Origin: Aurantiochytrium sp. KH105
Taxonomy: Eukaryota > Sar > Bigyra > Thraustochytrida > Thraustochytriidae
Length of the DNA: 64,000 nucleotides
Direction of reading: 5' to 3'
NCBI GenBank assembly: GCA_003116975.1
Contig: BGKB01000224.1
Span: forward strand, 48,759-112,758
The notes below the pieces were generated by a model. The model was not told the DNA's origin, did no database searches, and worked only from the letters and a program-made list of their open reading frames with translations. Of the stretch, positions 25,644 to 64,000 are shown in pieces; position 1 is the stretch's first letter, and each line of letters starts with the position of its first letter. The position numbers and the translations under genes are program-made.

Positions 25644-28600
25644 ATGAAGGCGGTCGCAGCTGCTGCGAGCGTCGTGGTGGTGGCCATGGCCGCCTCGACG
25701 GCGGCGCAAACAACTACGCAGTGCGAGATCGGTACCGAGGAACTTGAATGGGGCTCGAGCGTCATCGGGTGTGGCACCGTGAGCGTGAGCATGGGAGGCT
25801 GCTGCGGTACCGCCTTGCCCGAGGCCGCAAACGCAACATCCACCGATGAAGCGATATGCCGGTCGTTGGAAATGCAGCGCGCATACTGTGAGAATGAAGA
25901 TCTCGAGGGCTGCGACAACTTCAAGCCTAACGCTACGCACGCCATCACATTTGAGATCGACGTCACATACGCCGACGCCGAGGACACGTGCTGCAGTCAA
26001 TGCAAGTGCTACGGTGATCCCCTGTGCGAAGCCTTTGACGGCTCGAGAGACCAAATGATTGAGTGCGATGCGCGCAACTTTACAGACTGTGGTCTGCAGC
26101 AAGACATTTGTCGTCGGCAGTTCGATCACGCCGGGAACCGCTGCAAGTGGCTCAAGGGCAACGACAACTACCCATGGTGGGTCTCCAACCTTGAAGACGG
26201 ATCTCCCTGCCAAGCAGATTACGAGAAGAGCGGGCAGCTCGAGCTCGTTCTCGTCGAAGTTGGCGACTTTAAGCTCTCCACACTCATTGGCGAGCGTGGC
26301 GTGCAGACCGACGTCCTCGTGAAGATGGCCGGGTCCTCAGACGTCTACTCCATGTCGTCCGAGGACTGCTTCGACAACGACCCACGCAACGTGGGCACCA
26401 GCAGTGCGGCGTCGGCATGGGACATGCCCACGAACGCGTCTGCGCCAGCCGAGTGGAGTGTCGAAACGCCCAACAGCATCGATGTCGTGTGGCACGTGGG
26501 CGACGCCAGCGTGGGCATCTACGCCGACGTCGTCTGCACCAAGGCCTCAGGGGCCTCGCGCACACGCCTCGACATCGAAAACATCACCGATACCCAGGGG
26601 CTTTCTGGAAATGGCTACTGCTACACTGGCGTCATCAAGTCGGGCAAGCAACGCGGATCCAACGTCGGCAACACGCAGGCTCACTACGACTGCCTTCAGC
26701 GGGAGCTTCCAAGCCTCGTCAGCACCTGCAAAGCCCTGACCAGCGACAGCTGCAGCTATCAAAACGTTGCCGGCTGGCAGCAGTACTGGTGCGAGACTGC
26801 CGAGCTCGAGTTCACAGAGGCCACAGGTGATACCTACGCCGACTTGGTGACCTCGTGCTTGGCAATCATCCGCAACGGGACGGAGGACGAGCAGGCGGCG
26901 CACTGGGATCGTCTTGCGTGCCAAATGAACTCGGGTCTGCCCTACGGCACGGATCAGCAAGACTCAAGTGTGACCGAGTGTCTGGATAACCTCAACGAGT
27001 TTGGCTTTTACGCCTGGACGCAAAAGTACGAGGGCATCATTCCTCACGAATGGACTGTGGCCGAAACATGCGTGTCATCCATTGAAGCGTTTACAGATGT
27101 CCCGGCGGACGACACGTGCGCTTCGGGTCTCCTCGTCGAGGTCAACAAAGGTGGCTCCTGGGAGGGCGTGCTGTACTTTCCGCCAGAGTCGCCGCCTTGC
27201 GCGGATGCCATCATCGAGGCCAACGGTGCTGATTTTCCGGACCTCTTTCTCTACCCGATTCGACTTCGCCAGTGCGGTCTCAGCGCCTCGTGCCTCGTCA
27301 CGGAAGGTGGCACCGAGTGCCGGCCTGTCATGTCGATCGACGCCACCCTCGACTTCTCTGGTTCCGTGTGCACGCTTGGTGGCGAAGACTGTTCGACGTG
27401 CGCGCGCGATCTTTCGGACACGCCGCCGCAAGTCTGCGAGGAAGGCTCAACCGATGAGTATGTTGTAGGCTATTGCGAACAGTGCTGCTCGACGAACAAC
27501 TATGTCCCCGGTCAGGAAAACCAGACGTGTCGCGATTTGGAGATTTCCACTCCGTTCTGCGACATGAGCGACGATACAAGCCTCAAGTACTGCAAGAAGT
27601 TCAAAAAGAAGCGCTACAACGGCATGCTCACCATTAACTTTACGGAGCCCGAGACCAGCGTCGATGACTCGTGCTGCAGCACCTGCGCGCTCTGGGGCGA
27701 TCCCTTTGGTCAAGCTTTCGACGGATCGCGCCAAAAGATCATTGTTTGCGACTCGCGTGACGCCACTTGTCTCTCGCAGGAAGAGCTCTGCGGCAACATG
27801 GTCGACCACAAGGGCAACGCTTGCGTGTGGAATCAGACCGTTGCTGACCTTATTGGCAGCAAGCGCACCAACATTGCTGCCTATGGCTCGCCGTGCCTGC
27901 CGGACTGGTCGACCTCGGGAGAGGACGAGGTCGTTCTGTACACGATCGAAGACCCAACCTTTCGCTTGAGCTTTTACACGGGCGAGCGCTCTATTTTGGA
28001 CTTGATGCTTCTCACGACGCCGAATGGCGAGTACTCGCTGGACCCTGAAAAGTGCTTTGCCACCGATCCGATGGACGGCTGGTCCACGCTCGACGGTGAG
28101 GACGTTTCGACGGCTCTCAACCTCACGTACACGGCGAATGGTGTCAACGGCTACGGCAAGGACGAGCGCGTCTGGTCCGTACTCGATCCTGCGACGGGCA
28201 TCTTCTTTCGAGTGACTTGCGTCTTTTCCGAGGCCGTCAATGCTAATTTTCAGGGCGGCTACCGTCTCAACGTTGAAAGCCTCGTGGACACCGAGCTGGA
28301 TCGCACCGGCACGGACGGATACTGCGTGACCTCAGATCTGGTCACCTATGGTGGTGGATACACGGAGAACCCGTATGCGGAAGTTTGCGAGGAGGCGCTC
28401 GCCTCGGATCACTTGGCATGCAAGGCGTTCTGGGCAGGCTCGTGCACGCCCGAGCAGATTGCTCTCGGTGTTGAGAGCTGGTGCAAGACGGCCAACCAGC
28501 CAGATTCGGTGAGCAAGTGCGTCAGGAGCATCAAGAAGAACAAGTCGTCCCGCACGGCCGCGCTCTGGACCAAGGCTGTTTGCACAGCACTCTTGCCCAT

Positions 28601-29069
28601 GAAGCAGGCCACGCAGTCCAAGGGCGCCTTCTTGCGCGAGTGCCAAGACCTTGCCGAAACGGAGGGTTACTATGCAATTGTGGAGAACTACGGGTCGGCC
28701 GGCGATCGCGCCTCTGTTCAGAGCTACTGCGCCAGCTCTGTCACCGACTACAGCAAGCGCGACTCCGTTGATCCATGCATTGGAGGCATTTCCGTGCAGT
28801 ACGATGCCGGCCAGGGCTGGGAAGAGCTCTTCTTTGTGCCCTCGAATCTCATGCCCTGCGATGGCTCGCTCGAGATTCCTGCTTACAAGTCCAAGTACTG
28901 GCCGCTCTTTGCGTACCCGATTCGCTTCGAGCAGTGCGACGTGCTGAACGAGGACGGCGCTTGTCCTGCGACGGTGAATGTTGAGGCCACTTGCATGGCG
29001 AACTTAGGCTTTGAGCTCAGCCTGACATACTCTTATGATGGCGACATTGGTTGCCCTGACGACGCTTGA
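25644..29069 (+). CDS. Array copy 1: secreted cysteine-rich two-module protein
   Basis: 1141 residues from ATG at 25644 (an in-frame ATG at 25617 would add nine basic residues before the same signal peptide). Signal peptide MKAVAAAASVVVVAMAAS with probable cleavage after TAAQ. Module A (about 30-570) has GGCCGT, then CCSQCKCYGDPLCEAFDG, DHAGNRCKWLKG, GERGVQTD and a closing FLYPIRLRQCGLSASC; module B repeats the order with CCSTCALWGDPFGQAFDG, DHKGNACVWNQT, GERSILD and FAYPIRFEQCDVLNEDGACP. Several NxS/T sequons (NATH, NITD, NQTV, NLTY) are present. It ends GDIGCPDDA with no hydrophobic tail, so a soluble secreted product is expected. The FDG signature resembles the start of von Willebrand D domains but the rest does not obviously match. 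Intronless. More diverged from copies 3-6 than those are from each other. Function unknown. Confidence 0.93.
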   Translation: MKAVAAAASVVVVAMAASTAAQTTTQCEIGTEELEWGSSVIGCGTVSVSMGGCCGTALPEAANATSTDEAICRSLEMQRAYCENEDLEGCDNFKPNATHAITFEIDVTYADAEDTCCSQCKCYGDPLCEAFDGSRDQMIECDARNFTDCGLQQDICRRQFDHAGNRCKWLKGNDNYPWWVSNLEDGSPCQADYEKSGQLELVLVEVGDFKLSTLIGERGVQTDVLVKMAGSSDVYSMSSEDCFDNDPRNVGTSSAASAWDMPTNASAPAEWSVETPNSIDVVWHVGDASVGIYADVVCTKASGASRTRLDIENITDTQGLSGNGYCYTGVIKSGKQRGSNVGNTQAHYDCLQRELPSLVSTCKALTSDSCSYQNVAGWQQYWCETAELEFTEATGDTYADLVTSCLAIIRNGTEDEQAAHWDRLACQMNSGLPYGTDQQDSSVTECLDNLNEFGFYAWTQKYEGIIPHEWTVAETCVSSIEAFTDVPADDTCASGLLVEVNKGGSWEGVLYFPPESPPCADAIIEANGADFPDLFLYPIRLRQCGLSASCLVTEGGTECRPVMSIDATLDFSGSVCTLGGEDCSTCARDLSDTPPQVCEEGSTDEYVVGYCEQCCSTNNYVPGQENQTCRDLEISTPFCDMSDDTSLKYCKKFKKKRYNGMLTINFTEPETSVDDSCCSTCALWGDPFGQAFDGSRQKIIVCDSRDATCLSQEELCGNMVDHKGNACVWNQTVADLIGSKRTNIAAYGSPCLPDWSTSGEDEVVLYTIEDPTFRLSFYTGERSILDLMLLTTPNGEYSLDPEKCFATDPMDGWSTLDGEDVSTALNLTYTANGVNGYGKDERVWSVLDPATGIFFRVTCVFSEAVNANFQGGYRLNVESLVDTELDRTGTDGYCVTSDLVTYGGGYTENPYAEVCEEALASDHLACKAFWAGSCTPEQIALGVESWCKTANQPDSVSKCVRSIKKNKSSRTAALWTKAVCTALLPMKQATQSKGAFLRECQDLAETEGYYAIVENYGSAGDRASVQSYCASSVTDYSKRDSVDPCIGGISVQYDAGQGWEELFFVPSNLMPCDGSLEIPAYKSKYWPLFAYPIRFEQCDVLNEDGACPATVNVEATCMANLGFELSLTYSYDGDIGCPDDA

Positions 29070-31674: not shown

Positions 31675-34165
31675 GCTTAAATGGTGTCAAAGAGGCGAAG
31701 AGAATTTGCCGTTGTTTAAGGCGAGCGCCGGCGCTTTTAGTATTGCCCTCGTCCACCCACGCGAAGGAAACAGATCTTCAAGTCTCCGCTTGACAAAATG
31801 TGGAACAAGGCGAAGTTCCAGATGGCAAAACCGACCGTCCCTCTTATGCTCACGACTCTAGTGGTCTCTCGATCGAGGTGCTCTGCGCCGCGCCGCGGTG
31901 TACACCTTCACGAGATTACAGGCCGGTGGTCGCTTTACGGTATTGCCAGGCCAGATAGAGCTCGTGATATTCTGCCAGCCTGCACAACTTTGCCAGTCTG
32001 GCAGCTCTGCATAATAACACACATTTCAAGTTCGCCCGGGAAAATAAATCAGTGTATTGATCCACTCCCAAAGACCTAATGCCAGGCGGGAAACTGCTAT
32101 ATGAGAGGTAGACACCCGACGACGAACGTCGGAAGGGCACGATGAAAGATCAATACGCCGCGCGTGCTGGACACGCCGGATCCATTCAGTGTGTACACCC
32201 AAAATAACCTTAATACAGTCATAGACCTACATAGCAGAAATGTACCAGGGTCACACGACCCTGGGACCACTGAGCCGAATAGACCTGGCAGCGACCAAAC
32301 CCGATGCCAGAAGCCGGCAGAACCGAAACCTACCATAATATTGAACTACACCAAAGCTTTCTCCGAGCAGCAGCGTGAGAAGCAATCAAACTACCTTCCC
32401 GTTTCGTGCTAGCCACGAAACGGATTTCTTTCACGTTTATTGAAGTCAACTTCTTCTTTCTATTCTTTCAGACTTCTGGGGAATCTCCGTCAACAACAGT
32501 GTGCAATACCAAATCGCACTTCAGTGGCATGGCAGACAAAGGCCAGAGTAGCCAAGGATGCTGGCACTTCCGAGAGGCAGACCGTCACGGAAAACCGGAG
32601 CGTATTAGGGTATATCCAGCAAAAATAAAATAAACAAATTGAGGGTTTGGCGGAGAGATCGGGTCGGGGGCAAAACTGCGCCCGGCCAGCTTTGACGGAG
32701 AGCAGGAGAAAAAGGATTGCGTCCATTTAAGAGAGACCGGCGACGAACAACTTGCCAGGAAGGACCACCACGGCCGAGCCTATCTGAAGTGCGTTTTGAG
32801 CACTGTTTTATTACCCGGGGGGCAACTTGTGCAGAATTCAGGCGTCTTGCGCACGGTCGCGTCTCCACAAACGCTCCATTCAAGCGCCAGTCAAAAAGGG
32901 CTGTTTTCCCCTTCCAAGTGTCAACTTTAGCTTGTGAGTTAGTCGAGCAGTTCGGCAAGCAAGTGCAGAATCAGCTTTGCCTCATTTGCTCTATTGGCAG
33001 CCAGGCATTGCAGCAGTGACCAGCCGACCGCACTGTCAACCCATTGGCGGGGCGTTGGCACAACACCCAGGCTGCAGGTGCCGCTTGACACATTTGCAAG
33101 TGCAGAACCGCCCATAGCAAGTGCAGAATCACTCCTTGGACCTGCAAAGTCTCCTTTTTCTACAAGTCATCCTTCGTCAAGACCGGCTCCATCGGCTACG
33201 AATTTAATCAATAAAACAATTTCATGGGAAAAAACGCACTTCAGGTCGCGGGGTCTTTAGCCCCGCAGAAAATATCACAGATCGATCCGTTCGTCGTCAA
33301 AGGTGGCACTGCCAGAGCTGCTATGCCAACTAAGAAAGAAAGAGAAGAAATACTTCAAAGAGACGAAAAGCGAAAGCACCAGGCTGCAGGCTATGGACGG
33401 CAGCCTGCATCCGTGCCGCACTCGTGTCAAGAGCATCGGCAAGCGATATGGACAAAAAAAAGCAAGGATAGAAAAAAAGATAGGGCCTAGAGGTGGAACT
33501 TGAAATGAAAATGGATTGCCCCCGCAGTGGGATTGGCACAGATCCGTTGCAAAACTTCTCGACCTTCACGTTTTTAGAAAATCGTGGCTTCTTTGGGTTT
33601 CACGTGCATGTGAAAGGTTGTTTCTACGTGGCATTAGCAGAAGAGCTATCCGCGCAGTAATGCGGGCCACCGTCCGAAGTTGTGGTAGGCAAGCATTGAA
33701 GATGTGCAGCCACTTTTAGCAACAAAACTTAGGACAGCTTGCGGCGCGGAGGAGGAGCTTTTGTGACCTTGTTGTTTGGTCACACGGGACAGGAGCTAGT
33801 GCAGCTTTGCAAGAGAATTCGTTACGCGGCCGGCCTCCTCTTGAGCTCATTCAAGTTAGAGTGCGAAGAGAAACTTTGCGAGTTCCTCCACAGCTCTTGG
33901 CGCGGAGGCAAGCGTCCGCGCACAAAGTGTCACCTGTTTTGCTTCGTGGAATGCTTCTTTCCTCTACTATATCATGTGCACACGCCGCGGCGCCAAGACG
34001 CGAAAACCCACATAAAAGTGGATACAGGCTGTCACAAGCGCAGCCTAAGACCCTCCGCGCCGCGAAGGACATCTAGGTAATCTGGACATCAGAGCTCGAG
34101 AAGTCGCGCAAACCCGAAACGTGGAAACGAAGACCTCGAAAGGAAAGGAAAGAAAAACAACCAAC
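31675..34165. other. Spacer upstream of copy 2 with element B
   Basis: 2.5 kb of lower-GC DNA without a convincing gene. Contains candidate element B (32784-33268) and another right-end-like ATCGCACTTCAG at 32512-32523. The palindrome AGGGTCACACGACCCTGGG lies at about 32248-32266. The last 100 bases form the purine-rich leader of copy 2 (GGAAAGGAAAGAAAAAC). Confidence 0.45.
32784..33268. mobile_element. Candidate non-autonomous element B with inverted ends
   Basis: Begins CTGAAGTGCGTTTT (32784-32797) and ends AAAACGCACTTCAG (33231-33244), an exact inverted pair, followed by the same short hairpin as element A (GCGGGGTCTTTAGCCCCGC). The interior shares CTACAAG and AAGACCGGCTC with element A and contains three AAGTGCAGAA repeats (about 32959, 33098, 33119). 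No intact transposase. Target-site duplication not identified by eye. Confidence 0.45.
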
Positions 34166-37100
34166 ATGGTGGACTGGAACGTGAAGAGCGCATCGCTTGT
34201 GGCGGTCGCAGCTGTACTTGTCTTTGCAGCGTCCTCGCGTGCTCAGACCTCGTATGGACAGTGTGGATCGGGAAATGACACCGTTATTCTTAAGGCCTCC
34301 TACACTCCTGAACAGGTAGGTTCTGATGCGATCAATTTGGAATGCGCCTCGCTTAGCTGGAGTCTCGAAGGGTGCTGCGGAAATAGACTCGGGGACAGCG
34401 AGGATGACATTTGCCGCAGTATCGAGACATCCAGCGCATTTTGCGATAGTGCAAGCGTGCCATTCGGAGTTACCTGCGACAACTTTGAGCCCAATGAAAC
34501 AATGAGCGTGACCTTTCAAGTGACGATGACCTATCCGGATGAAGATGAGACATGCTGTCAGCTGTGCAAGTGCTATGGAGATCCTCTTTGCGAGTCGTTT
34601 AACGGTACACGTGACCAAATGATTGAATGCGATGCACGGGACTTCGATTCATGCAAACTTAAAAAGGACATTTGTGACGACCAGTATGACCATGCAGGCA
34701 ACGAGTGCATATGGCTCAAAAATAACAGGGATTTTTCCTGGTGGAACTCAAATCTCGAGGACGGATCGCCCTGCCAGGCTGATTACAGCGTCTCAGGCCA
34801 ACTGGAGCTCGTCATGCTGGACGTTGACGATTTCAAGCTGGTGACTCTGATTGGCGAAAGAGGCGTGCAGACCGACGTGCACATTTCAATCCCTGACTAC
34901 GATGGCGCCTTTGAGCTTAACTCGGATGATTGCTTTGACTTTGATCCTCGCGACGTTGGCGAGGATGGTGCGGCGGATGCTTGGGGCCTCGCGGTCGATG
35001 CGTCGGGGCTCCCAAGCGCGTGGAAAGTGGAGGCCTATGGAGACGTGGAGATTCGCTGGCATATTTGGGAGCCCTCGCTAGGAATCGCAGCTACAGTGGT
35101 ATGCACGAAGGCCATCGGTGCGTCACGAACCCGCCTGGACATTCGCAATGTGATGGACACTCAAGGACGCACTGCCGGAGAAGGATTTTGCTTTAGTGGC
35201 TTGATTGACACCGAGAAGCAAAATGGCACGAATCTGAACAATGCAGAAGTTCACTACAAGTGTCTAGAACTCGAGCTTCCGGACGTCGTGACAACGTGCA
35301 AGTGGCTGACAGACGATACGTGCTATGCGCGCACTCTGAGTGGATGGCAGGAGTACTGGTGCCAGAACGCCGAGCTTGAATTCACGAAAGCAAGTCTCAG
35401 CGGAGGCTCGTACTCGGATATGGTAGCAACATGTCTGACGGACATTTCAAGTGGCACGGATAAAGAACAAGCGGAGACATGGGCAACGTACGCGTGCGAA
35501 ATGAACTCCTATCTTCCGTATGGGACAATGACACAGACCTCTTACGTGACCGAGTGCCTCAAGCTGCTTGAAGAGAATGGATGGTATCCTTGGGATAAGG
35601 TGTATACGGGATTGATTCAGCACGAATGGACTGTGAACGAGACATGCAAGAGTACGCTGGAGGACTTTACGGACATTCCCGATGACACTATGTGCGCAAC
35701 GGGCGTGATGGTCGAAGTTGAAGTGGATGGCACCTGGATTCCTAAGCTTTACTTTCCCGTGGAGAGCCCTCCGTGCACTGACTCGATTTTGGAAGCTCCT
35801 GGCGATCAGTACCCCGAATTCTTCATGTATCCGGTTCGTATGCGACAGTGTGGTTTGAGTGCCGAGTGTCTTGCCGACAGCGTGAAGCCAGAGTGTAAGC
35901 CATTGCCCACTGTTGACGTGGAAGTGGCTTTCAACACGGATGTGTGCCGAACAATTACAGGTGGTGACTGCACCGATTGCAACCTTGCAGTTGAGACGGC
36001 GCCGGAGGTCTGTACAACGGGTGCCAACGAGGCCTTTGATCTTGGTTTTTGCGAGGAGTGCTGCAACTCGAACAACTTCTTGCTTGGAGAAGAGGGCCAG
36101 TCGTGCCGCGAGCTGACCCTACCTTCAGCATTTTGCGATGCGTCAGATGAGAGCCAGGCCGCGTACTGCAGCAAATTGCAGAAGAAGTCAGGCAAAGGCG
36201 TTCTCACTCTCAATTTTACTTCATACACCACGGATATGGAGTGCTGCGCGACATGCGCGATCTGGGGCGACCCGTATGGCGAGGCGTTTGACGGATCACG
36301 TGAGAAACTCATCGTGTGCGATTCTCGCATTGAGGGATCATGCTTTCCAGACAAGGATCGTTGCGTAAATTCTGGCCTCACTGATCATGGCGGAAATGAC
36401 TGTGTGTGGAACGAGACGGTCTGGGAGCTGATTGATGGGCACGGAGGCAACATTGGCGCGTACGGATCGCCGTGCACCGCAGACTTTGCAAAATCAGGCG
36501 AGAGCGAGGTGGTCATGTACGAGACGGCAAATCCGTACCGTTTGAGCTTTTACATGGGTGAGCGAGCAATTCTGGACAAGATGCTGCTGACGACGCCGCA
36601 GGGATCGTACACTCTGGATGCACAAGATTGCTTTGCGGATGATCCTGCGAGCGCTTGGGTGACGGAGTCGGGCGTGATTGCGGCGACGGCGCTGGAGCTC
36701 ACGTACACGGGCGAGGGCATGGACGGATATGGAGAGGATGAGCGTGTGTGGGCTGTAATGGAGGCGGACCTGGGTATCTTTTTCCGTATGACTTGCGTGC
36801 GATCGCGCGCTGCGACTACGGGCTACATCGGAGGATACCGTCTTAACGTGGAGCATCTCATTGACACGGAGTTGAGCCGTAGAGAAAGCTCGAGTTCGAG
36901 TGGCTATTGCGTGTCGGGAAATATGTCAGCCTACGGTGGCAGCTACACGGCCAACCCGGATGCCGAGACGTGCGAGGACGCGAGCGTTGAGGGTGCTCAC
37001 GAGGCATGCAAGGCGTTTTGGGCTGGGTCGTGCACGCCGGCGCAAATTGACCTTGGCATTAAGAGCTGGTGCGAGACAGCAAATACGCAATTGTCGGTGA

Positions 37101-43790: not shown

Positions 43791-43804
43791 ATCGACAGCC
43801 TTAG

Positions 43805-44058
43805 TCGGCTTCACGTATTTCTTTTTCGGTAAAATCAATGATGAACTAAGCTTTGACCTGCATGAATTGACTTTTGTTCGTTTTTGGCCTCGTCTTGATG
43901 AGATGTCATTCCATCGCGAGTCGCTCACTCATCGGCTACACGTATTTCTTTTTCGGTAAAATCAATGATGGGCTAAACCTTGACCTGCTTGAATTGACTC
44001 TTGTTCGTTTTTCGCCTCGTCTTGATGAGATGGCACCCCATCGCGAGTCACTCACTCA
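43805..44058. repeat. 127-bp tandem duplication after copy 3
   Basis: Two head-to-tail copies (43805-43931 and 43932-44058) starting TCGGCT(T/A)CACGTATTTCT and ending CTCACTCA, differing at roughly a dozen positions. It begins 14 bases after the stop codon of copy 3, so at least one unit may lie in the 3' UTR. Confidence 0.9.

Positions 44059-46802: not shown

Positions 46803-46803
<1 letters not shown>

Positions 46804-46882
<79 letters not shown>
46804..46882. repeat. (CTG)26 trinucleotide repeat
   Basis: Uninterrupted CTG/GCT run of about 79 bases. It would read as poly-Ala, poly-Leu, poly-Cys (plus) or poly-Ser/Gln (minus), and no well-supported gene covers it. Confidence 0.97.
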
Positions 46883-46883
<1 letters not shown>

Positions 46884-53452: not shown

Positions 53453-54076
53453 GCGCGTCTGGCCGGCTCGGTCGGGCTTGCACGCCGTCGCCGCGAGGCC
53501 CGGGCGTCCGTCTGCGATGGCGCCGCGGCGTGCCCATCCTGCCAGCCGGCCAGCCAGCCCGGGCCGGCCGGCTGCCCTCCCTGGCCGTTCTCCTCCTGTG
53601 CAGGTGCAGCCAGGAGAACGCGCGCGCTGCGCCCGTCGGGACCTGTGGCTAGCGGCGCCGGTAGCGGCGCGCTAGCGAGGGCGGCGTCGCGTGCTTCGCC
53701 CTGTCGTGCACGCGCTTTTTCAAGCTGCCCTGACCGGAGGGAGAGAAGTGAAGTGAAGTGAGCCAGCCAGCCGCCTAGCGCGCACCTAGCGGGGCCGCTA
53801 GCATGCCGGCCAGGGACAGCAGCCGGCCGCCGCGTTGACGGGGGTAATCGTGGCCGTGGCTCGGAGCCAGCAGCCTGGCCTGGGTTGCTTGCTTGCTTGC
53901 TAGCTTGCTTGCTTTTGCTTGCGAGGCGAGCAGACCCCGAACTCCGGCTCGAGGAGCCAGGAAAGAGACGAAGAGACCAGCCGAACAGGCAGACAGACGG
54001 CGAGACATTGAGACGGACTCAACGCGGAACGAGAACGAGGACGAGAAGGCGAGAGCGAGTGCAGGCACCGACAATC

Positions 54077-57000
54077 ATGCGAGGTGCTGCGACCGCAGCC
54101 GTCGTGCTGGGCCTGGCGCTCTCCGCTCAGGCCCAGACCGACTCGTGCGAGATCACACTCGACACCATCGACTGGTCCACCACCAACCCGCTCGGCCTCT
54201 CCGGCTGCGGATCCACCCCTGTCTCTTTTGGCGGATGCTGCGGTAACGTCCTTCAGGATTCCGAGGACACCTGCAGCGTCGTCAACTTCGCGTCCGCCGC
54301 CTGTGAGGACAGTGACGAAGGCTGCGCAGATTACGTCCCCAACGCCACTGACTCCGTCACCTTCTCCTTCGAGTGGGCCTATTCCTCGACAGAGACCTGC
54401 TGCGAAAAGTGCAAGTGCTATGGTGATCCTCTCTGCGAGGCCTTCGATGGCACCACCGACCAGATGATCGAGTGCGATGGCCGTAACTTCACCTCGTGCA
54501 AGATGGAGCAGTCCATCTGCCGCGAGCAGTTTGACCATGCCGGAAACCGCTGCAAGTGGCTCAAGGGCAACCTCAACTACCCGTGGTGGAACTCCAACCT
54601 CGAGGACGGCTCGCCCTGCCAGGCCGACTACAACGTCTCCGGCCAGCTGCAGCTTCCCCTCCTCGAGATCGATGGCCTCTCCATGTCCACCCTCATCGGC
54701 GAGCGCGGCGTCCAGACCGACTTCTCCATCACTCTCTCTGGCGACAGCGAGGCCTACACGCTCAACTCGGACACCTGCTTCGACTACGACCCGCGCGACG
54801 TCGGCACCGCCAACGCTGCCAACGCCTGGGGCCTTCCTTCCTCGGCCTCGTCTATCCCGGACTCGTGGACCGTGAGCATCCCCAACGATGTGGAGATCCG
54901 CTGGCACATCAACGACCCGACCCTCGGTATCTTTGCCGACGTCATCTGCAACAAGGCCATCGACGCCGAGCGTACCCGCCTTGACATCGAGAACATCACC
55001 AACACTCAGGGTCTCACTGGTGGCGATGGCTTCTGCTTCACTGGTGTCATCGACCAGGAGCAGGCCAGCGGCACCAACGTCGACAACTCGGTGGCGCTTC
55101 ACTACAAGTGCCTCTCGGCGCAGCTTCCGGACCTTGCCAACACCTGCAAGGCTCTCACTGACGATACCTGCTACCCCCGCACCGTCCTGGGCTGGCAGCA
55201 GTACTGGTGCGAGACTGCCGAGCTCGAGTTTACCCAGGCTTCAGAGGGCACTTCGGTCTACAGCGACATGATTGAGACCTGCCTCACCGACCTCCGCACC
55301 GGCACCGAAGAAGAACAGTCGCAGACCTGGATCACATACGCTTGCCAGATGAACTCGCTGCTTCCGTATGGAACTACCCAGCAGGACTCGTACGTTGAGC
55401 AGTGCGTGAACCTGCTCGCCGAAGAGGGCTGGTACGAGTGGGCCCAGACCGCCCAGTACCAGGGCATCATCCCCCACGAGTACGTGCAGTCTGACACTTG
55501 CGTGAGCTCGCTCGACGACTTTACCACGATCCCGGACGACCTCGAGTGCGCCTCGGGCATGATTGTCGAGACCAACCAGGACGGCACCTGGGTTCCCATC
55601 TTTTACTTCCCGCCTGACACGCCGCTGTGCACTGGTGCCATTGCCGAGGCTACCGGCGATGTCTACCCTGAGCTCTTCCTGTACCAGATCCGCCTGCGCC
55701 GCTGCGGTCTCGCTGCCAGGTGCCTCGTGGCTGATGAGGGAACCGAGTGCAAGCCGTTGCCTTCAATTGATGTCCAGGTCATCTTCGCTGGCCAGGTATG
55801 CGAGCAGTCAGATGACGGATGTGATACTTGCGAGCTGAACAACAACGGCATGCCCCCGGCCGTGTGCGAGACCAACGCGCAGGACACGTACTATCTTGGG
55901 CTCTGCGAGCAGTGCTGCGAGACCAACAACTTTGTCCCTGGCCAGGAAGGCCAGACCTGCCGCGAGCTCGAGGTCAGCACCCCGTATTGCGACGCCTCGG
56001 ACTCCGCTACAAGCGCCTACTGCACTGAACTTCGTCGTTCCTCCAGCAACGCTCAGCTTACACTTGGTATTGCAAAGGTAGTCGTCGAAGGCGAGGAGTT
56101 CTGCTGCGAGAGCTGCCAGCTCTGGGGTGATCCCTTTGGTGAGGCCTTTGACGGCTCGCGTGAGAAGCTCATTGTCTGCGATGCCCGCGACGAGGACTGC
56201 TTCACGCAAGAGGAGATCTGCAACAGTCTTGTCGATCATGCCGGCAACCCGTGTGTGTGGGACCAGGCGACCAAGGACCTCATTGGCAGCAACCGCGGCA
56301 ATATTGGTGCCTATGGCTCGCCTTGCCTTCCGAACTACGCACTGTCTGGTGAGAATGAGGTCACGCTCTACAACGTTTCTGAACCCTATTACTCCCTGAG
56401 CTTCTTTACCGGTGAGCGCTCTATCCTTGATTTTATGATGCTCAACACGAGCAAGGGCGAGTACACGCTCGACCCGGAAGCATGCTACGGTGATGGCGAG
56501 CTCGCCGGCTGGACCACCGTCTCGGGCACGCCAGTCGATGAGGCCTTTGAGCTCACCTATACTGGCGCTGGCGAGGATGGCTACGGTAACAATGAGCGTG
56601 TATGGGCCGTCTACGAGCGTGACATGGGCATCTTCTTCCGCGTTACCTGCGTCAACACGCAGGCCGTGACCACGGACTACGTCGGTGGCTACCGTCTCAA
56701 CATTGAACACCTTGTCGACACCAACCAAACGCGCCCAGGAGCGGGCGGCTACTGCTTGAGCGGCGATCTTCTCTCGTACGGTGGCTCTTACACGAACAAC
56801 TCGTTCGCGGAGGAGTGCGAAATCACGGATCTCGAGCTCGATCATCTTGCCTGCAAGGCCTTTTGGTCGGGAAGCTGCACCCGAAACCAGATTGATCTCG
56901 GCATTCAAAGCTGGTGCGAGACCGCGAACCAGCTCAACTCGGTCACCGCCTGCTTCGATAACATCAAGCGGAACAATAACGCCAAGACCGGTCAACGCTG

Positions 57001-57514
57001 GATCACTGCAGTCTGCACGGCCTTGCTGCCCCAGAAGCAGGCTTCGCAGACCGACAGCGACTTTATTCGCGATTGCGAAGAGCTCGCTGAGACCTCGGGC
57101 GAGCCCTTTGCCATTGTCGAAAACTACGGCTCGGCAGGCGACCGCGCCTCCGTCAGCAGCTACTGTGCAAGCTCAGTCACCGAGTACGGCTCTCGCGATG
57201 AAACTGACGCCTGCATCAGCGGAATTTCCGTGCAGTACAATGATGGCAGCGGCGGCTGGACCGAGGCCTTCTTCATCCCTTCGAACTTGCTCCCCTGCGA
57301 CGGCGCGCTCTCGATCCCTGCTAGCAACAGTGACTACTGGCCGCTCTTCATCTACCCGATCCGCTTCCAGCAATGCGATGTCCTTAACGAGGAGGGCGCT
57401 TGCCTTGCCACGGAGAACGTTGAGGCCAGCTGTATGGCCACCTTTGGCTACAGCCTCAACTACACGTTTTCGTACGATGTTGATCTTGAATGCGATTCTG
57501 GTGACCAGGCATAA
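54077..57514 (+). CDS. Array copy 5: secreted cysteine-rich two-module protein
   Basis: 1145 residues from ATG at 54077. The frame is open upstream, but the ATG immediately before the signal peptide MRGAATAAVVLGLALSAQA matches the starts of copies 3 and 4. Mature start QTDSCEITLDTIDW as in copy 4, and module A is nearly identical to copy 4 except for patches such as EGTSVYSDMIETC. Module B has diverged more (ELRRSSSNAQLTLG, SSFTNQ-type changes, CTRNQIDLGIQSWC, FDNIKRNNNAKTGQ) and the end is ECDSGDQA instead of GCPDDA. Signature CCEKCKCYGDPLCEAFDG / CCESCQLWGDPFGEAFDG both intact. A possible polyadenylation hexamer AATAAA lies only five bases after the stop. Confidence 0.95.
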   Translation: MRGAATAAVVLGLALSAQAQTDSCEITLDTIDWSTTNPLGLSGCGSTPVSFGGCCGNVLQDSEDTCSVVNFASAACEDSDEGCADYVPNATDSVTFSFEWAYSSTETCCEKCKCYGDPLCEAFDGTTDQMIECDGRNFTSCKMEQSICREQFDHAGNRCKWLKGNLNYPWWNSNLEDGSPCQADYNVSGQLQLPLLEIDGLSMSTLIGERGVQTDFSITLSGDSEAYTLNSDTCFDYDPRDVGTANAANAWGLPSSASSIPDSWTVSIPNDVEIRWHINDPTLGIFADVICNKAIDAERTRLDIENITNTQGLTGGDGFCFTGVIDQEQASGTNVDNSVALHYKCLSAQLPDLANTCKALTDDTCYPRTVLGWQQYWCETAELEFTQASEGTSVYSDMIETCLTDLRTGTEEEQSQTWITYACQMNSLLPYGTTQQDSYVEQCVNLLAEEGWYEWAQTAQYQGIIPHEYVQSDTCVSSLDDFTTIPDDLECASGMIVETNQDGTWVPIFYFPPDTPLCTGAIAEATGDVYPELFLYQIRLRRCGLAARCLVADEGTECKPLPSIDVQVIFAGQVCEQSDDGCDTCELNNNGMPPAVCETNAQDTYYLGLCEQCCETNNFVPGQEGQTCRELEVSTPYCDASDSATSAYCTELRRSSSNAQLTLGIAKVVVEGEEFCCESCQLWGDPFGEAFDGSREKLIVCDARDEDCFTQEEICNSLVDHAGNPCVWDQATKDLIGSNRGNIGAYGSPCLPNYALSGENEVTLYNVSEPYYSLSFFTGERSILDFMMLNTSKGEYTLDPEACYGDGELAGWTTVSGTPVDEAFELTYTGAGEDGYGNNERVWAVYERDMGIFFRVTCVNTQAVTTDYVGGYRLNIEHLVDTNQTRPGAGGYCLSGDLLSYGGSYTNNSFAEECEITDLELDHLACKAFWSGSCTRNQIDLGIQSWCETANQLNSVTACFDNIKRNNNAKTGQRWITAVCTALLPQKQASQTDSDFIRDCEELAETSGEPFAIVENYGSAGDRASVSSYCASSVTEYGSRDETDACISGISVQYNDGSGGWTEAFFIPSNLLPCDGALSIPASNSDYWPLFIYPIRFQQCDVLNEEGACLATENVEASCMATFGYSLNYTFSYDVDLECDSGDQA

Positions 57515-59074
57515 TTGCAATAAAGTTTTATCAATTCTTCATCCTGTTTTTCATTCCCATCTGCCTTTCGTCCTCGGATGAAGCTGTGAACATACGCGAA
57601 GAAGAGCCGTGCTTTCACTGAAAGGATGAACCTAATGATGACCACTTCGCATAGACTTTTGTTCTCTCCTTCAACTCTCGAAGCTAGCGATTTGTGCATT
57701 AAAGTCGCAAACCTTGACCAACCATCTTCTTATTTTCTTTCCTCAACTCGGTCTCTTTGCAACAACCATGCTTAAAACGGCGGCGCCGCCTACTTTTCTG
57801 TTTTCCAGGAGCTGCTGCTCATGCCATCTGTCAATAATCTTCTTTCCTTTCGAGATCTAGACAACCAATACTTTCTTTTTGTCACCATTCTCAAATCTTG
57901 TGGATTCTGAGAAATCACGGACGTGAGCGCGCTGCACGTAGCTTTCTTCGCGCCTCTTTTGTTTGAATTGCTCAAAATGCCCGAGGCTGCACTTCGTCGT
58001 GCGCATCAAGGAAGGCATCAGCTGAGCACAGAAGCACAGTTGACCACATCATCTTTTTACGTGATGGTTCACGTGATGGAAAGGAGCAAGTCAGGCGTGC
58101 CTGACTTCCTCGGCAGATCGGCCACTATCTCGTGCATCTCTCGACTCCTTGTTCACAGCACCGACTCCACTCCACGATCTGCGTCCTTCCATTGCTTTCC
58201 CCCGCACTCCAGCACATTCCTGCCATTTATTCCCTAAGAGGTTGATCGCGCAGCATGGCACGTTGCCTAGAAACCTATGCGCGCGAGTCCTAGTCAGTCT
58301 GAGGGAGCCAGACAGCCGGGCTGCACGCCGCGGCGGAAATCCATTTTCCTTCCCTCGGTTTCGTTCCCGCAGGAGAATGGGCAAGAGTGTTGACTATTTT
58401 TACATACCATGACAGCAGCGACGCGCCTTCCATCTAGTGTCGCGTTTCCCCCTCAAGATCGTCGTCAAGAGGACACATCACGCACGCGCCGCGCCAGGAT
58501 CGCGTGCCGACAATCGCTCCATTCTTGTCGAGACTTATTTCTGTGTTGTTGGTTATTTTGTTGGCAACGAGAAGCCGTCGCCTACGCAGCGTCCACTTTC
58601 CCAGCTCCAGGCTGCTGCACACGTATGAAAGCGTTGCATGTAGGAATGGCAGTAGACGCGCATTCTTTCGCAAACTGCGAGGAACGCAGGAGAGAATGGA
58701 CCGCCATTTTTTGAAAACAATGTGGACTACTTGTCGGGCTGCGCCTGGAGTTTTCCCTAACAAAGAGGTATACAGTCCATTTTTCTTCCAGCCACCAAAA
58801 AACACCGCGCGGAGAACTGGAAGGAAAGGCAAAGAGGCTGCAGACTGTCTGAGACAGACAGACAGACAGACAGCAGCCCGTGGGCGAAGCCAAATCGATT
58901 GCAGGTCGGCAGGCAGCAGCAAACCCGAAACACCGACCAACCGACTGATCGATCGGTTGGTTGGCTGGAGTGCAGACTTCTTCTCTCGGAGAAGGGCCTG
59001 CGCTCATTGCCTGCCTGCAATACAAGGACAAGAAACAAAGAAAGAAAAAGAAAAAGGGAATAGAATCGAAAACA
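57515..59074. other. Spacer between copies 5 and 6
   Basis: 1.56 kb, lower GC in the first 600 bases. (CAGA)n at 58855-58875 and GATC/GGTTGGTTGG tracts (58947-58966). No supported gene. Ends in an A-rich purine leader (AAACAAAGAAAGAAAAAGAA) directly before copy 6. Confidence 0.5.
57519..57524 (+). promoter_or_regulatory. Possible polyadenylation hexamer after copy 5
   Basis: AATAAA five bases past the TAA stop at 57512-57514. Equivalent positions after the other copies do not show the hexamer, so it may be chance. Confidence 0.3.
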
Positions 59075-62000
59075 ATGGATTACATGCAGCGCGGCATCGC
59101 CATCGCGGCCGCCGTCCTGTGTCTGGCGCTCTCTACGCAAGCTCAGACCGACTCATGCGAGATCACGCTCGACACCATCGACTGGTCGTCCACCAGCACG
59201 TTCAGCCTCTCCGGCTGCGGCGAAGCCCCCGTCTCCTTTGGCGGATGCTGCGGTAATCTCCTGCAAGACTCTGAAGACGCATGCAGCACTGCCATCTTTG
59301 GGAGCGCTGCCTGTGAGGACCGCGACTGTGTCGAAAACCCGCCCAACGCCAGCGACTCCGTCACCTTCTCCTTTGCGTGGGCCTACTCCTCGACAGAGAC
59401 CTGCTGCGAAAAATGCAAGTGCTATGGTGATCCTCTCTGTGAGGCCTTCGATGGCACCACCGACCAAATGATCGAGTGCGATGGTCGCGATTTCACAACC
59501 TGCAAGATGAACAAGGATATCTGTCTCGCGCAGAACGACCATGCCGGTAACGGGTGCAAGTGGCTTAAACGCAACAGTGACTACCCGTGGTGGAACTCCA
59601 ACCTTGAGGACGGCTCGCCCTGCCAAGCTGACTACAGCGTTTCCGGCCAGCTGGAGCTTCCCCTCCTCGAAATCGATGGCCTCTCCATGTCCACTCTCAT
59701 CGGTGAGCGCGGCGTCCAGACCGACTTCTCCATTACCCTCTCTGGCGACAGCGAGGCCTACACGCTCAACTCGGACACCTGCTTCGACTACGACCCGCGC
59801 GACGTCGGCACCGCCAACGCTGCCAACGCCTGGAGCCTTCCTTCCTCGGCCTCGGCTATCCCGGACTCGTGGACCGTGAGCATCCCCAACGATGTGGAGA
59901 TCCGCTGGCACATCAACGACCCGACCCTCGGTGTCTTTGCCGACGTCATCTGCAACAAGGCCATCGGAGCTTCGCGCTCCCGCCTCGACATCGAGAACAT
60001 CACCGACACTCAGGGTCTCACTGGTGGCGATGGCTTCTGCTTCACTGGTGTCATCGACCAGGAGCAGGCCAGCGGCACCAACGTCGACAACTCGGTGGCG
60101 CTCCACTTCAAGTGTCTCTCGGCGCAGCTTCCGGACCTTGCCAACACCTGCAAGGCCCTCACTGACGATACCTGCTACCCGCGCACCGTCCTGGGCTGGC
60201 AGCAGTACTGGTGCGAGACCGCCGAGCTCGAGTTCACCCAGGCCTCTTCTGGCGCTTCCACCTATGGCGACATGATCGAGACCTGCCTCACCGATCTCCG
60301 CACTGGCACTGGTGAGGAGCAGTCGCAGACCTGGATCACATACGCTTGCCAGATGAACTCGAAGCTCGAATACGGCTCAGCAGAGCAGGACTCGTACGTT
60401 GAGGAGTGCATCAACCTGCTCACCGAGGAGGGCTGGTACGAGTGGGCCCAGACCGCCCAGTACCAGGGCATCATCCCCCACGAGTACGTGCAGTCTGACA
60501 CCTGCGTCTCTTCGCTCGACGAGTTCACTACGATCCCGGACGACCTCGAGTGCGCTCCAGGCATGATTGTCGAGACCAACCAGGACGACACCTGGGTTCC
60601 GGTCTTTTACTTCCCGCCCAATGTGCCCGCATGTGTTGGTGACTTTCTCAACGCCACGGGCGAAGACTACCCTGAGCTCTTCCTGTACCAGATCCGCCTG
60701 CGTCGCTGTGGTCTCGCCGCCAAGTGCCTCGTCGCTGATGAAGGCACCGAATGCAAGCCTCTACCTTCGATTAATGCGACAGTGGAGTTCGATAGCCTGT
60801 CTTGCGTCGAGCCCGAGGATAATCCATGCGAATTTTGCGAGCAAAATGTCAACGACGTGCCCCCAGCCGTGTGTGAGACCAACGAACAGGACACGTACAC
60901 GCTTGGCTACTGCGAGCAGTGCTGCGAGACCAACAACTTTCTACCGGGCCAGGAGAACCAGACCTGCCGCGAGCTCGTGGTCAGCACCCCGTTCTGTGAC
61001 ACCTCGGACTCCACCACGAGCGCCTACTGCACCAACCTCAAACGATCGCGTCGTAATGCCAAGCTCACCCTCGGAATTACCAAGGATGTTGTCGAGGGTG
61101 AGGAGTTCTGCTGCGACAGCTGCCAGCTCTGGGGCGATCCCTTTGGTGAGGCCTTTGACGGCTCGCGCGAGAAGCTCATTGTCTGCGATGCCCGCGACGA
61201 GGACTGCTTCACGCAGGAGGAGATCTGCGGTACTCTTCTCGATCATGCCGGCAACCCGTGCGTGTGGAATCAGACGACCAAGGACCTCATTGGCAGCCGA
61301 CGCGGTAACATTGGAGCCTACGGCTCGCCTTGCCTTCCGGACTACGAAAAGTCTGGCGAGAACGAGATTGTTCTCTACGAAGTTTCTGAGCCCTTTTACT
61401 ACTTGAGCTTTTACACTGGTGAGCGCTCCATCCTCGATCTCATGATCCTCAACACGAGCAAGGGCGAGTACACGCTCGACCCGGAAGCCTGCTACGGTGA
61501 CGGCGAGCTCGCCGGCTGGACCACCGTCTCGGGTACGCCAGTCGATGAGGCCTTTGAGCTCACCTACACTGGCGCTGGCGAGGATGGCTACGGTAACGAC
61601 GAACGCGTCTGGGCCGTCTATGAGCGTGACATGGGCATCTTCTTCCGCGTCACCTGTGTCAACTCGCAGGCCGTGACCACGGACTACGTTGGTGGCTACC
61701 GTCTCAACATTGAGCACCTCGTCGACACGAATCAGGAGCGCACTGAGACGAGTGGCTACTGCGTGAGCGGCGATCTTCTCTCGTACGGTGGCTCTTACTC
61801 GAACAACTCGTTTGCCGAAGAGTGCGAGGTCAAGGATCTCCAGCTCGACCACCTTGCCTGCAAGGCCTTCTGGTCTGGCGCCTGCACCCCGGACCAGATC
61901 GACCTCGGCATTGAAAACTGGTGCGAGACCGCCAATCAGCCCAACTCGGTGACCAAGTGCGTCAATAGCATCAAGCGTAGCAACCGCGTCAAGACCGGTG

Positions 62001-62515
62001 AGCGCTGGATCACGGCTGTGTGCACGGCGCTTCTTCCCCAGAAGCAGGCTTCGCAGACTGACAGCGACTTCATCAAGGATTGCGAGGAGCTTGCCGACAC
62101 CACCGAGGACCCGTACGCTATTGTCGAGAACTATGGCTCTGCTGGTGACCGCGCCTCGGTCAGCAGCTACTGCGCCAGCTCGGTGTCCGAGTACGGTTCT
62201 CGCGATGATATCGACGCTTGCATTAGTGGCATTTCCGTGCAGTACGATGAAAGCAGTGGCGACTGGACCGAGGCCTTCTTCATTCCCTCGAACTTGCTCC
62301 CCTGTGACGGTACGCTCGAGATCCCGGCCAGCAAGAGCAAGTACTGGCCGCTCTTTATCTATCCGATCCGCTTTGAGCAATGCGATGTCCTCAACGAGGA
62401 AGGCGCCTGCCTTGCCTCTGAGAACGTTGAGGCCAGCTGCATGGCCACCTTTGGCTACAGCCTCAACTACACCTTCTCCTACGACGGTAGCGTAGGTTGC
62501 CCGGATGATGCTTAA
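59075..62515 (+). CDS. Array copy 6: secreted cysteine-rich two-module protein
   Basis: 1146 residues from ATG at 59075 (a second in-frame ATG three codons on gives the same signal peptide). Signal peptide QRGIAIAAAVLCLALSTQA, mature start QTDSCEITLDTIDW. Module A: CCEKCKCYGDPLCEAFDG, DHAGNGCKWLKR, GERGVQTD; module B: CCDSCQLWGDPFGEAFDG, DHAGNPCVWNQT, GERSILD, FIYPIRFEQCDVLNEEGACL; end GSVGCPDDA. The inter-module segment (SINATVEFDSLSCVEPEDNP) is the most variable region relative to copies 4 and 5. Long blocks are identical or nearly so to copies 4 and 5, with some positions (SVSEYGS, CDGTLE) matching copy 3 instead. Intronless. Confidence 0.95.
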   Translation: MDYMQRGIAIAAAVLCLALSTQAQTDSCEITLDTIDWSSTSTFSLSGCGEAPVSFGGCCGNLLQDSEDACSTAIFGSAACEDRDCVENPPNASDSVTFSFAWAYSSTETCCEKCKCYGDPLCEAFDGTTDQMIECDGRDFTTCKMNKDICLAQNDHAGNGCKWLKRNSDYPWWNSNLEDGSPCQADYSVSGQLELPLLEIDGLSMSTLIGERGVQTDFSITLSGDSEAYTLNSDTCFDYDPRDVGTANAANAWSLPSSASAIPDSWTVSIPNDVEIRWHINDPTLGVFADVICNKAIGASRSRLDIENITDTQGLTGGDGFCFTGVIDQEQASGTNVDNSVALHFKCLSAQLPDLANTCKALTDDTCYPRTVLGWQQYWCETAELEFTQASSGASTYGDMIETCLTDLRTGTGEEQSQTWITYACQMNSKLEYGSAEQDSYVEECINLLTEEGWYEWAQTAQYQGIIPHEYVQSDTCVSSLDEFTTIPDDLECAPGMIVETNQDDTWVPVFYFPPNVPACVGDFLNATGEDYPELFLYQIRLRRCGLAAKCLVADEGTECKPLPSINATVEFDSLSCVEPEDNPCEFCEQNVNDVPPAVCETNEQDTYTLGYCEQCCETNNFLPGQENQTCRELVVSTPFCDTSDSTTSAYCTNLKRSRRNAKLTLGITKDVVEGEEFCCDSCQLWGDPFGEAFDGSREKLIVCDARDEDCFTQEEICGTLLDHAGNPCVWNQTTKDLIGSRRGNIGAYGSPCLPDYEKSGENEIVLYEVSEPFYYLSFYTGERSILDLMILNTSKGEYTLDPEACYGDGELAGWTTVSGTPVDEAFELTYTGAGEDGYGNDERVWAVYERDMGIFFRVTCVNSQAVTTDYVGGYRLNIEHLVDTNQERTETSGYCVSGDLLSYGGSYSNNSFAEECEVKDLQLDHLACKAFWSGACTPDQIDLGIENWCETANQPNSVTKCVNSIKRSNRVKTGERWITAVCTALLPQKQASQTDSDFIKDCEELADTTEDPYAIVENYGSAGDRASVSSYCASSVSEYGSRDDIDACISGISVQYDESSGDWTEAFFIPSNLLPCDGTLEIPASKSKYWPLFIYPIRFEQCDVLNEEGACLASENVEASCMATFGYSLNYTFSYDGSVGCPDDA

Positions 62516-63267
62516 GTCTCTAAAAAATGGAAATCTGCACGTCTTTTCAAAGTTCGACCATTCCTTATAAATTGGTTGAGCACGAAATCGAATTCATGAC
62601 TTTTGTTCGTGAGCATATATGAGTTGCTTTCTCAAGTGCTCGCTTGTCCTTGTTTCCCTCTTTGATCCTGACGCGAAAGCTCAACCCCATGTCACGTTGA
62701 CTTCTTAACGAGATCTTGCGTGAATAGCAAACATTATGCCTTTACGTCCAGAGAATGCATATCTTTCCCAGGGTAAAGCTTAGTCGACGTCGTTCACCAT
62801 GTAAGCCCACCCTTCCGCAGCTTGACAAGTGCTCTTGGTCACCGCGGATTGACCAATAGAGACACAAATGCGAGTCCACTCCAACCTTCCTGGTAGGTCA
62901 GAACTGAAAAAAAAGGAGACACAATGTGGCGGGTTCTGCGACTCAGTCCATACAATGCCCTTTTGAGCGAGCCGACCCATGCCACAGTTCTTCGAGGCGT
63001 AGTGCGACCGGTGCGTTTTCAGGGTCACTCTCGATGAGGGCGCGATACCTACCCATACATAGATGGACAGTCACCATGCCCTGATGCCAAAGAAATATAT
63101 CAGCGCATCAAAACTCAGACCGTATGGATGTCGCCGCAGTGCCCGTGGACAACCACACCAAGCTCGATCGATGAAGAAGCAAACCCGAAAAAGAAAGCAC
63201 CATAAGAGCGAGCAAAAAGAGCTGCAGCACGTTCCAGACCCTCCCTCCCTCGCCTGCACTGGCAGTC
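62516..63267. other. Short spacer before copy 7
   Basis: 752 bases, lower GC. A minus-strand frame of 82 codons (63028-62780) reads partly protein-like (RLEWTRICVSIGQSAV, then AEGWAYMVND) but has no recognised motif and may be a remnant. The final part contains a purine-rich leader (AAACCCGAAAAAGAAAGC). Confidence 0.45.
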
Positions 63268-64000
63268 ATGAAGATGTTGCAAACCGCTGCGATAGCGATG
63301 ACGATAGCCACGCTCATTTTGCGCAGCGCAAAGGCCCAAACGAGCACATGCTCGACCAGCGCAAACATTGTCTCCTGGCAAGATTCTGCCTTTCCCGGAT
63401 GTGGCCTCATGGCCTTTGACATGGGCGGATGCTGCGGCAATGTATTATCGACCTCTAGCGACGCTGTTTGCAGCTCCACCACCTTTGAAACTGCATATTG
63501 CGAGAACACTTTTATCGATGGTGGCTTCACCGATTTCACCCCCAATGCGTCCGACACGCTGACTTTTGAAATCAACGTCACCTACGCTGAGACCGAAGAT
63601 ACTTGCTGCCAAAAGTGCAAGTGCTACGGTGATCCCCTTTGCGAAGCCTTCGACGGCACGCGTGACCAGCTCATTGAGTGCGATGCTCGCAACTTTACCA
63701 CTTGCAGCCTTAAGAAGAGTATTTGCCGCCAGCAGTACGATCATGCCGGCAACCGCTGCAAGTGGCTCAAGGGGAACAAGCACTATTCATGGTGGACCTC
63801 CAACCTCGAAAGTGGCTCTCCGTGCCAGGCCGACTACAACGTGAGCGGCCAGCTGGAGTTGGTCATGCTCGACGTTGATGACATGTCCATCTCCTCGCTC
63901 GTTGGCGAGCGGGGTGTCCAGACTGATGCCATGATCCTTCTCCCGTCCTACAGCGAGCCTTTCCAGATCAACTCGGATACCTGCTTCGACTACGACCCGC
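63268..64000 (+). CDS. Array copy 7: secreted cysteine-rich protein, partial (runs off right edge)
   Basis: An open frame from ATG at 63268 continues to the end of the window (244 codons visible). Residues 1-28 are a signal peptide (MKMLQTAAIAMTIATLIL, then RSAKAQ). The remainder aligns over module A: GGCCGN, NASDTLTFEINVTYAET, CCQKCKCYGDPLCEAFDG with its GDP starting at residue 121, RNFTTC, DHAGNRCKWLKG, CQADYNVSGQLELVMLDVDD, GERGVQTD and CFDYDP. The LVMLDVDD stretch is closer to copy 2 than to copies 4-6. A second in-frame ATG lies two codons downstream. The C-terminal three quarters lie outside the window, so integrity cannot be judged. Confidence 0.9.
   Translation, partial: MKMLQTAAIAMTIATLILRSAKAQTSTCSTSANIVSWQDSAFPGCGLMAFDMGGCCGNVLSTSSDAVCSSTTFETAYCENTFIDGGFTDFTPNASDTLTFEINVTYAETEDTCCQKCKCYGDPLCEAFDGTRDQLIECDARNFTTCSLKKSICRQQYDHAGNRCKWLKGNKHYSWWTSNLESGSPCQADYNVSGQLELVMLDVDDMSISSLVGERGVQTDAMILLPSYSEPFQINSDTCFDYDP

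Follow-up and report, generated by a model that had tools for sequence, protein, structure and literature searches.

The closest described systems to the gene family reported here are secreted proteins built on von Willebrand factor type D (VWD) domains. In many animal VWD domains, a GDPH turn lies between the first two strands, and its His, which is absent from some VWD domains, is important for Asp-Pro self-cleavage; in FCGBP, changing this His to Asn inhibited the self-cleavage (PMC10880436). Among stramenopiles, the diatom Seminavis robusta has a VWD family enriched in tandem copies; a GDPH domain, hypothesized to matter for adhesion, is present as well in 61 of the VWD proteins of this species (PMC7335047). 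The Amphora trail proteins are likewise diatom VWD/GDPH adhesives according to papers that cite them. The GDPH trait is not universal in diatoms, since a study of Nitzschia inconspicua did not find the pattern (PMC8329260). In stickleback, nest glue comes from tandem MUC19-derived VWD-mucin genes, spiggin (PMC4989455). Here we describe a family of secreted, cysteine-rich, two-module proteins whose genes form a tandem array in a 64,000-nucleotide stretch of DNA (the window; positions 48759 to 112758 of contig C224). We put at about even the chance that these are divergent VWD-like extracellular matrix or adhesive proteins, acting as acidic, internally stapled two-module chains.

An open-frame search revealed seven frames of one family, all on the plus strand, from position 25617 to the right edge of the window (genes g1 to g7 in Table 1). 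With starts set at the ATG just ahead of the hydrophobic leader, each of the six complete genes encodes a hydrophobic N terminus ending in AQ, and none of the six proteins has a second strongly hydrophobic stretch or a hydrophobic tail. Secretion and a two-module, cysteine-rich build are close to certain, and from the leader we infer signal peptide cleavage. The initial annotation, made from the window alone, had described six complete paralogues and one cut paralogue on the plus strand, intronless, of about 1,150 residues, with a signal peptide and without a membrane or glycosylphosphatidylinositol-like tail. This description is borne out, as every gene is one uninterrupted frame and the six complete products have 1,143 to 1,166 residues. 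The same annotation had the genes fill 38 kb; the array does span 25617 to 64000 (38.4 kb), but family genes cover only 56% of it, and a minus-strand gene (30028 to 31674) lies between g1 and g2. The product of that gene has a hydrophobic N terminus and a GDSL/SGNH hydrolase match below threshold (24 bits versus a cut-off of 32.9), and it is possibly a glycan-modifying enzyme.

The right edge of the window is the end of contig C224 (112,758 bases), and it is this contig end that truncates g7. On contigs C110 and C53, these genes recur in unchanged order with slightly different sequence; in our reading, the assembly (76.0 Mb, 367 contigs) is diploid, with C224 as one haplotype and C110 plus C53 as the other. 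On C53, g7 is complete and is followed by an eighth gene, g8, so that the predicted continuation of the array past the right edge could be confirmed on the sister contig; no family match is listed past g8 on C53. Two genome searches, one from g3 (scoring 40 of 60 candidates) and one from a distant member, D5 (scoring 41 of 51), converged on the same five loci. These hold at least 21 family genes per haplotype, at least 14 of which lie outside the window view (g8 and 13 at the four other loci). What the initial annotation saw, a locus given over to an expanded set of cysteine-rich secreted proteins, is an array of at least eight genes (locus A) within a larger family. Protein identity among the paralogues of locus A is 56 to 92%, and identity to g1 goes down to 28 to 36% in loci B and C. 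The alignment used below contains one copy of each of 21 genes, with D2 and D3 represented without their 5' ends.

Two-module members contain a unit of about 530 residues twice. In the window proteins, the N half is homologous to the C half at 25% identity (hhalign probability 100, E 6.8e-41), and in a tree of 41 modules the 21 N modules and the 20 C modules fell on opposite sides with support of 100/98. The two-module gene therefore predates all loci. Paralogue E, the only gene of locus E, has one module only: an N-type module is followed by a Pro/Thr/Glu linker and a VWA domain (PF00092; E 9.6e-9, 36.1 bits versus a cut-off of 23.8), in which we read a D-x-S-x-S metal-site motif. Its module grouped with the N modules of locus C at 100/99 in a tree for which the program warned of long branches meeting and listed E as one of the long rows. 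Paralogue E and the locus C N modules also share an extra cysteine pair (column 441 with 508 or 510), and C2 and C3 have Pro/Thr/Glu-like linkers between their two modules. As a natural fusion of module and VWA domain, paralogue E hints at adhesion. Von Willebrand factor is built from D modules and A domains; E is alike in joining a module, a Pro/Thr/Glu linker and a VWA domain, but it has one module and one A domain, and its homology to D modules is putative.

Counted after residue 20, the mature proteins have exactly 68 cysteines in each of the 15 members of loci A to C and in all 12 sister-haplotype copies counted, which gives substance to the conserved cysteine framework of the initial annotation. 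The aligned cysteine set is identical in loci A and B. Locus C departs from it at two places: its three C modules lack the pair at columns 445/453, and its three N modules have an additional pair at 441/508, so that the total stays 68. Columns 128 and 134 co-occur, and only in N modules outside locus D, where the C modules have an extra pair at columns 326/338 and the complete members counted (D1, D4, and D5) have 64 cysteines each. Because the cysteines mostly change in pairs and their total is even, complete internal pairing is predicted from the alignment, with about 34 disulfides per protein. The even, near-constant count argues against interchain disulfide polymers. Net charge is -90 to -166 in all 21 members, two of which are truncated. 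The many N-glycosylation sequons listed earlier amount to 8 to 11 per protein in the six complete window genes, which is the expectation from composition (a fraction of 0.13 to 0.71 of 1,000 shuffles was as high), although at three columns a sequon is conserved across 7 or 8 of the 8 locus A proteins. High glycosylation was accordingly rejected as a defining trait.

A VWD-like fold of the module core, which we slightly favor, is suggested by a motif and by a structure model. The motif C-x3-GDP-x4-F is present in all 41 modules, and its cysteine closes a CC-x2-C or C-x3-C cluster. The local FDG motif of the initial annotation belongs to this longer element, and the full F-(D/N)-G can be read in only 21 of the 41 modules. 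GDPH-type VWD domains likewise have a C four residues ahead of the GDP turn and F-D-G behind it. The first structure model was of the C half of g3, and a second, template-free model covered 230 residues of the same module. The best PDB match of the 230-residue model was FCGBP (VWD repeats; probability 0.98, E 0.013), followed by MUC5AC (0.89 and 0.84) and FCGBP D10 (0.47), and the highest other probability among the best 50 of 504 matches was 0.38. Tentatively, then, the module may consist of a divergent VWD-like beta-sandwich core opened by the C-x3-GDP-x4-F turn, then a helical region rich in cysteine, and lastly another beta part. Eight invariant cysteines lie between residues 340 and 455 of the g3 C half, a stretch that is helical in a low-confidence model.

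Compared with FCGBP and the VWD domains (PF00094) of gel-forming mucins, the family is alike in the turn that opens the core, in a beta-rich model that fits FCGBP and MUC5AC best, in secretion and repeated modules, and in the cysteine-rich helical region that is modeled with low confidence after the core. It is unlike them in having no Pfam VWD match, no GDPH His and no CGLCG, in some 60 additional, cysteine-rich residues that follow the turn, and in its even, near-constant cysteine number. With the diatom VWD/GDPH adhesives it shares a probable stramenopile host, a GDP-type motif and, in Seminavis, tandem expansion (PMC7335047; PMC8027222); those proteins are described with a VWD and/or GDPH domain, whereas the array family lacks the GDPH His and does not score with Pfam VWD. 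Stickleback spiggin resembles it as a set of tandem genes for secreted, cysteine-rich, multimodule proteins that yield bulk extracellular material (PMC4989455), but it is a vertebrate system whose genes have exons and introns.

Several results weigh against the VWD-like matrix reading. The model of the whole g3 C half is poor (predicted local distance difference test [pLDDT] score, 54.8) and gave no significant fold match, with MUC5AC at rank 17. No fold match of the 230-residue model reaches an E value of 0.001, and the best one has a template modeling score (query) of 0.30 and a root mean square deviation of 6.8. Pfam VWD was matched by none of the 21 members at E values up to 10, and C8 and TIL are not among the 10 Pfam families matched by any of the 21 at an E value of 10 or less. 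In hhalign, a profile of the 41 modules scored 13.2 against three von Willebrand factor D domains, within the range of 100 column-shuffled controls (maximum, 19.3); this control is weak because those three domains have no GDP, and of the two negatives the one from Pfam carries more weight. His follows GDP in none of the 41 modules, and the multimerization motifs CGLCG and C-x-GEC occur in none of the 21 members, so that the known VWD cleavage and polymerizing motifs are missing. In the aligned segment, the N modules of locus D drop six cysteines and add one, which leaves no clean pair set, and pairing in locus D is therefore not cleanly readable. Finally, a 2025 settlement proteome of Aurantiochytrium limacinum, probably from the same organism group, lists 18 ectoplasmic-net candidates, untested and mostly without annotation, among which are some secreted attachment candidates; judged by their descriptions, none of the 18 can be recognized as a member of the family (PMC12221091).

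These negatives raise the possibility that the module is a new, non-VWD domain, i.e., a lineage-specific disulfide-rich fold in a structural protein of wall or scale in which GDP..F is coincidental. The missing VWD profile match in both Pfam and hhalign, the lack of any PDB profile match for the module alignment at an E value of 10 or less, and the roughly 60 cysteine-rich residues that lie between the GDP..F turn and the beta region would all be expected of such a fold. Identical C-x3-GDP-x4-F spacing in 41 of 41 modules is harder to attribute to coincidence, and every fold match above a probability of 0.4 among the best 50 of 504 is a VWD protein. We regard a non-VWD domain as a serious contender, albeit one that we rather doubt.

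Selection bears on a different alternative. At the whole-gene level, the ratio of nonsynonymous to synonymous substitution rates (dN/dS) between alleles was 0.05 to 0.23 in 13 of 13 pairs, which cover 13 of the 21 genes (g1 to g7, with g7 partial; B1 to B4; C1; and C3, leaving out g8, C2, E, and D1 to D5); the value of 0.05 was that of g1 and its C110 allele. The family is under purifying selection and not visibly diversifying, contrary to the diversifying product that had been offered as one option. The option of a defense role found no observation pointing specifically to it, and we rejected a defense or diversification reading on the dN/dS values. Soluble binding or recognition proteins, with copies specialized for ligands in prey capture, bacterial contact, mating or defense, could account for the old divergence of the paralogues in the array (down to 56% identity) and for the VWA domain of paralogue E, and the tandem-enriched VWD family of one diatom shows upregulation in ten conditions, of which half involve interaction with bacteria (PMC7335047). 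Set against the purifying selection in all 13 allelic pairs, such a role seems unlikely. Synonymous divergence (dS) differs severalfold between gene halves in g4/g5 (0.15 versus 0.56) and in g7/g8 (0.24 versus 0.065), which suggests recent gene conversion in both pairs.

Searches of other collections agree with the initial annotation in recognizing no described family. None of the seven window proteins matched Pfam at E values up to 10, and below an E value of 0.001 the only Pfam matches among the 21 members were VWA and VWA_2, both in paralogue E. For the 5 of 21 members searched, NCBIfam gave no match and PHROGs gave matches at E values of 0.02 to 0.23 only, which we judged to be chance. The same judgment was made of PDB sequence matches to TFIIB and similar proteins (E 0.02 to 1.4) and to acetylglutamate synthase (E 0.21) and of weak Pfam matches to ToxB_N (0.0093) and Collar (0.013). 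A prokaryotic or viral origin was rejected, as pattern scans of viral and prokaryote sequence collections confirmed no relative. In the open-access literature searched, we found no description of this family. Secreted enzymes of a new class, acting for example on sulfated polysaccharide, might explain the invariant charged residues (GDP, CD.R, D..G, GER, and R), the weak GDSL/SGNH gene within the array, and an adjoining glycosyltransferase gene. We nevertheless consider an enzyme improbable, since Pfam, NCBIfam, and PDB sequences offered no convincing enzyme family and 31 of the 40 positions invariant over the 41 modules are Cys, Gly, Pro or Trp, with no enzyme signature recognized among the 40.

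An origin of the copies as artefacts of assembly, or as duplicates in decay, has practically no remaining probability: contigs do break at the array in both haplotypes, but the paralogues are distinct (56 to 92% identical), all seven have counterparts on C110 and C53, frames are intact, dN/dS is well under 1 with constant cysteines, and the intergenic gaps of the array hold no gene relics at an E value of 0.01, so that the duplication of one gene in assembly, too, was ruled out.

For the divergent VWD-like chains, the most likely use is as bulk extracellular material, because secretion is anchorless, the invariant residues are mostly structural, cysteine content is extreme, net charge is strongly negative, the copies are amplified in tandem, and one paralogue carries a VWA domain. 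The matrix or adhesive role itself, drawn by analogy, has about one chance in two. In this model, the chains would fold in the endoplasmic reticulum, where the even cysteine set would be paired, and would pass through the Golgi apparatus to be exported as rigid, protease-resistant, acidic building blocks. Outside the cell, they might associate noncovalently, probably via divalent cations and sulfated polysaccharide, into wall, scale or attachment material, with the VWA-bearing paralogue E as a possible linker to other ligands; the cation and polysaccharide partners and the mode of assembly are proposed by analogy only. Thraustochytrid walls are noncellulosic, their sulfated polysaccharide contains galactose and xylose, and the formation of wall elements has been observed in the Golgi apparatus (PMC11642839), so that a secreted acidic protein partner would suit them. 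A more far-reaching version is that labyrinthulomycete wall scales or ectoplasmic-net attachment material are built from a dedicated family of at least 21 divergent VWD-like proteins that share remote ancestry with diatom adhesives and animal mucins but have lost self-cleavage and disulfide polymerization, working instead as stapled, acidic, cation-bridged bricks. In that full form, we think it unlikely.

The array and its surroundings are summarized in Table 1.

Table 1. Genes of the array, the modeled segment, upstream elements, and loci of the family (positions are those of the window unless a contig is named)
Feature	Position	Strand	Description
Gene 1 (g1)	25617..29069	+	Secreted two-module protein, 1,150 residues; N half 25707-27371, C half from 27372
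Gene 2 (g2)	34166..37666	+	1,166 residues; most divergent member within the array
Gene 3 (g3)	40302..43790	+	1,162 residues; N half 40365-42077, C half 42078-43787
Gene 4 (g4)	48757..52188	+	1,143 residues
Gene 5 (g5)	54077..57514	+	1,145 residues from ATG; longer TTG frame takes in upstream sequence
Gene 6 (g6)	59084..62515	+	1,143 residues
Gene 7 (g7)	63268..64000	+	Cut; full length (1,150 residues) on sister contig C53, followed by gene 8
g3 C-module segment	42354..43043	+	CC..C-GDP-F to G.C, 230 residues; template-free model, pLDDT 67.1, predicted template modeling score 0.60
Promoter-like element	25555..25567	+	AGCAAATCCGAAA; upstream of g1
Promoter-like element	34107..34119	+	Form CGCAAACCCGAAA; upstream of g2
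Promoter-like element	40167..40179	+	2 mismatches; upstream of g3
Promoter-like element	58918..58930	+	Exact; upstream of g6
Promoter-like element	63178..63190	+	Exact; upstream of g7
Locus A			8 genes; window array
Locus B	C47/C33		4 genes
Locus C	C11/C18		3 genes
Locus D	C42/C146		5 genes
Locus E	C30/C87; L027 869-3754		Single gene, paralogue E

The element GCAAACCCGAAA has five matches in the window with at most 2 mismatches, all upstream of family genes and thus at 5 of the 7 genes. At least five matches were also obtained in 5 of 100 shuffles of the window. Exact copies number 146 genome-wide, compared with 8 for the reversed control, and at three scanned sites (six sites were read) the genes downstream encode EDR2_C, thioredoxin, and ABC transporter proteins. 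On these grounds (the number of genome copies, the unrelated genes downstream, and the shuffles that equal the window), a family-specific regulon was rejected, and GCAAACCCGAAA is probably a general promoter element of the organism. Upstream of the array lies a plus-strand gene of glycosyltransferase family 90 (22134 to 24032; E 2.3e-16), a family that makes extracellular glycans in other organisms. Farther upstream are genes for a ubiquitin hydrolase (9969 to 12629, plus strand), a clathrin adaptor medium subunit (13070 to 14344, minus strand), and an HSP70-like protein (17454 to 20531, minus strand). The effective number of codons is 32 to 49 in the array genes and 38 to 59 in five neighbors. 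The gap between g3 and g4 contains a perfect CTG repeat of about 27 units (46804 to 46883), and two-copy repeats of 127 and 210 bases are found at 43805 and 44364.

The genome also holds two PfaD-type domains, each on two contigs and far above the family cut-off. One of them stands in frame behind a FabA-like dehydratase, and the other closes an open frame of about 2,080 residues, an arrangement that we take to fit the orfC and orfB subunits of thraustochytrid polyunsaturated fatty acid synthase. On the basis of these genes, the organism is probably a thraustochytrid-like protist, which is consistent with the stramenopile origin guessed earlier for this DNA.

In the literature searched, little is known about which proteins occur in the walls, scales, and ectoplasmic nets of thraustochytrids, and this family supplies named candidate genes for wall or attachment material. 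The predicted secretomes of six other thraustochytrid genomes comprise 252 to 330 proteins (PMC6050695); by our own arithmetic, 21 genes would correspond to about 6 to 8% of a secretome of that size. If the VWD-like core is true, it would extend an adhesive and mucin module to another line of stramenopiles, in a form missed by the sequence searches used.

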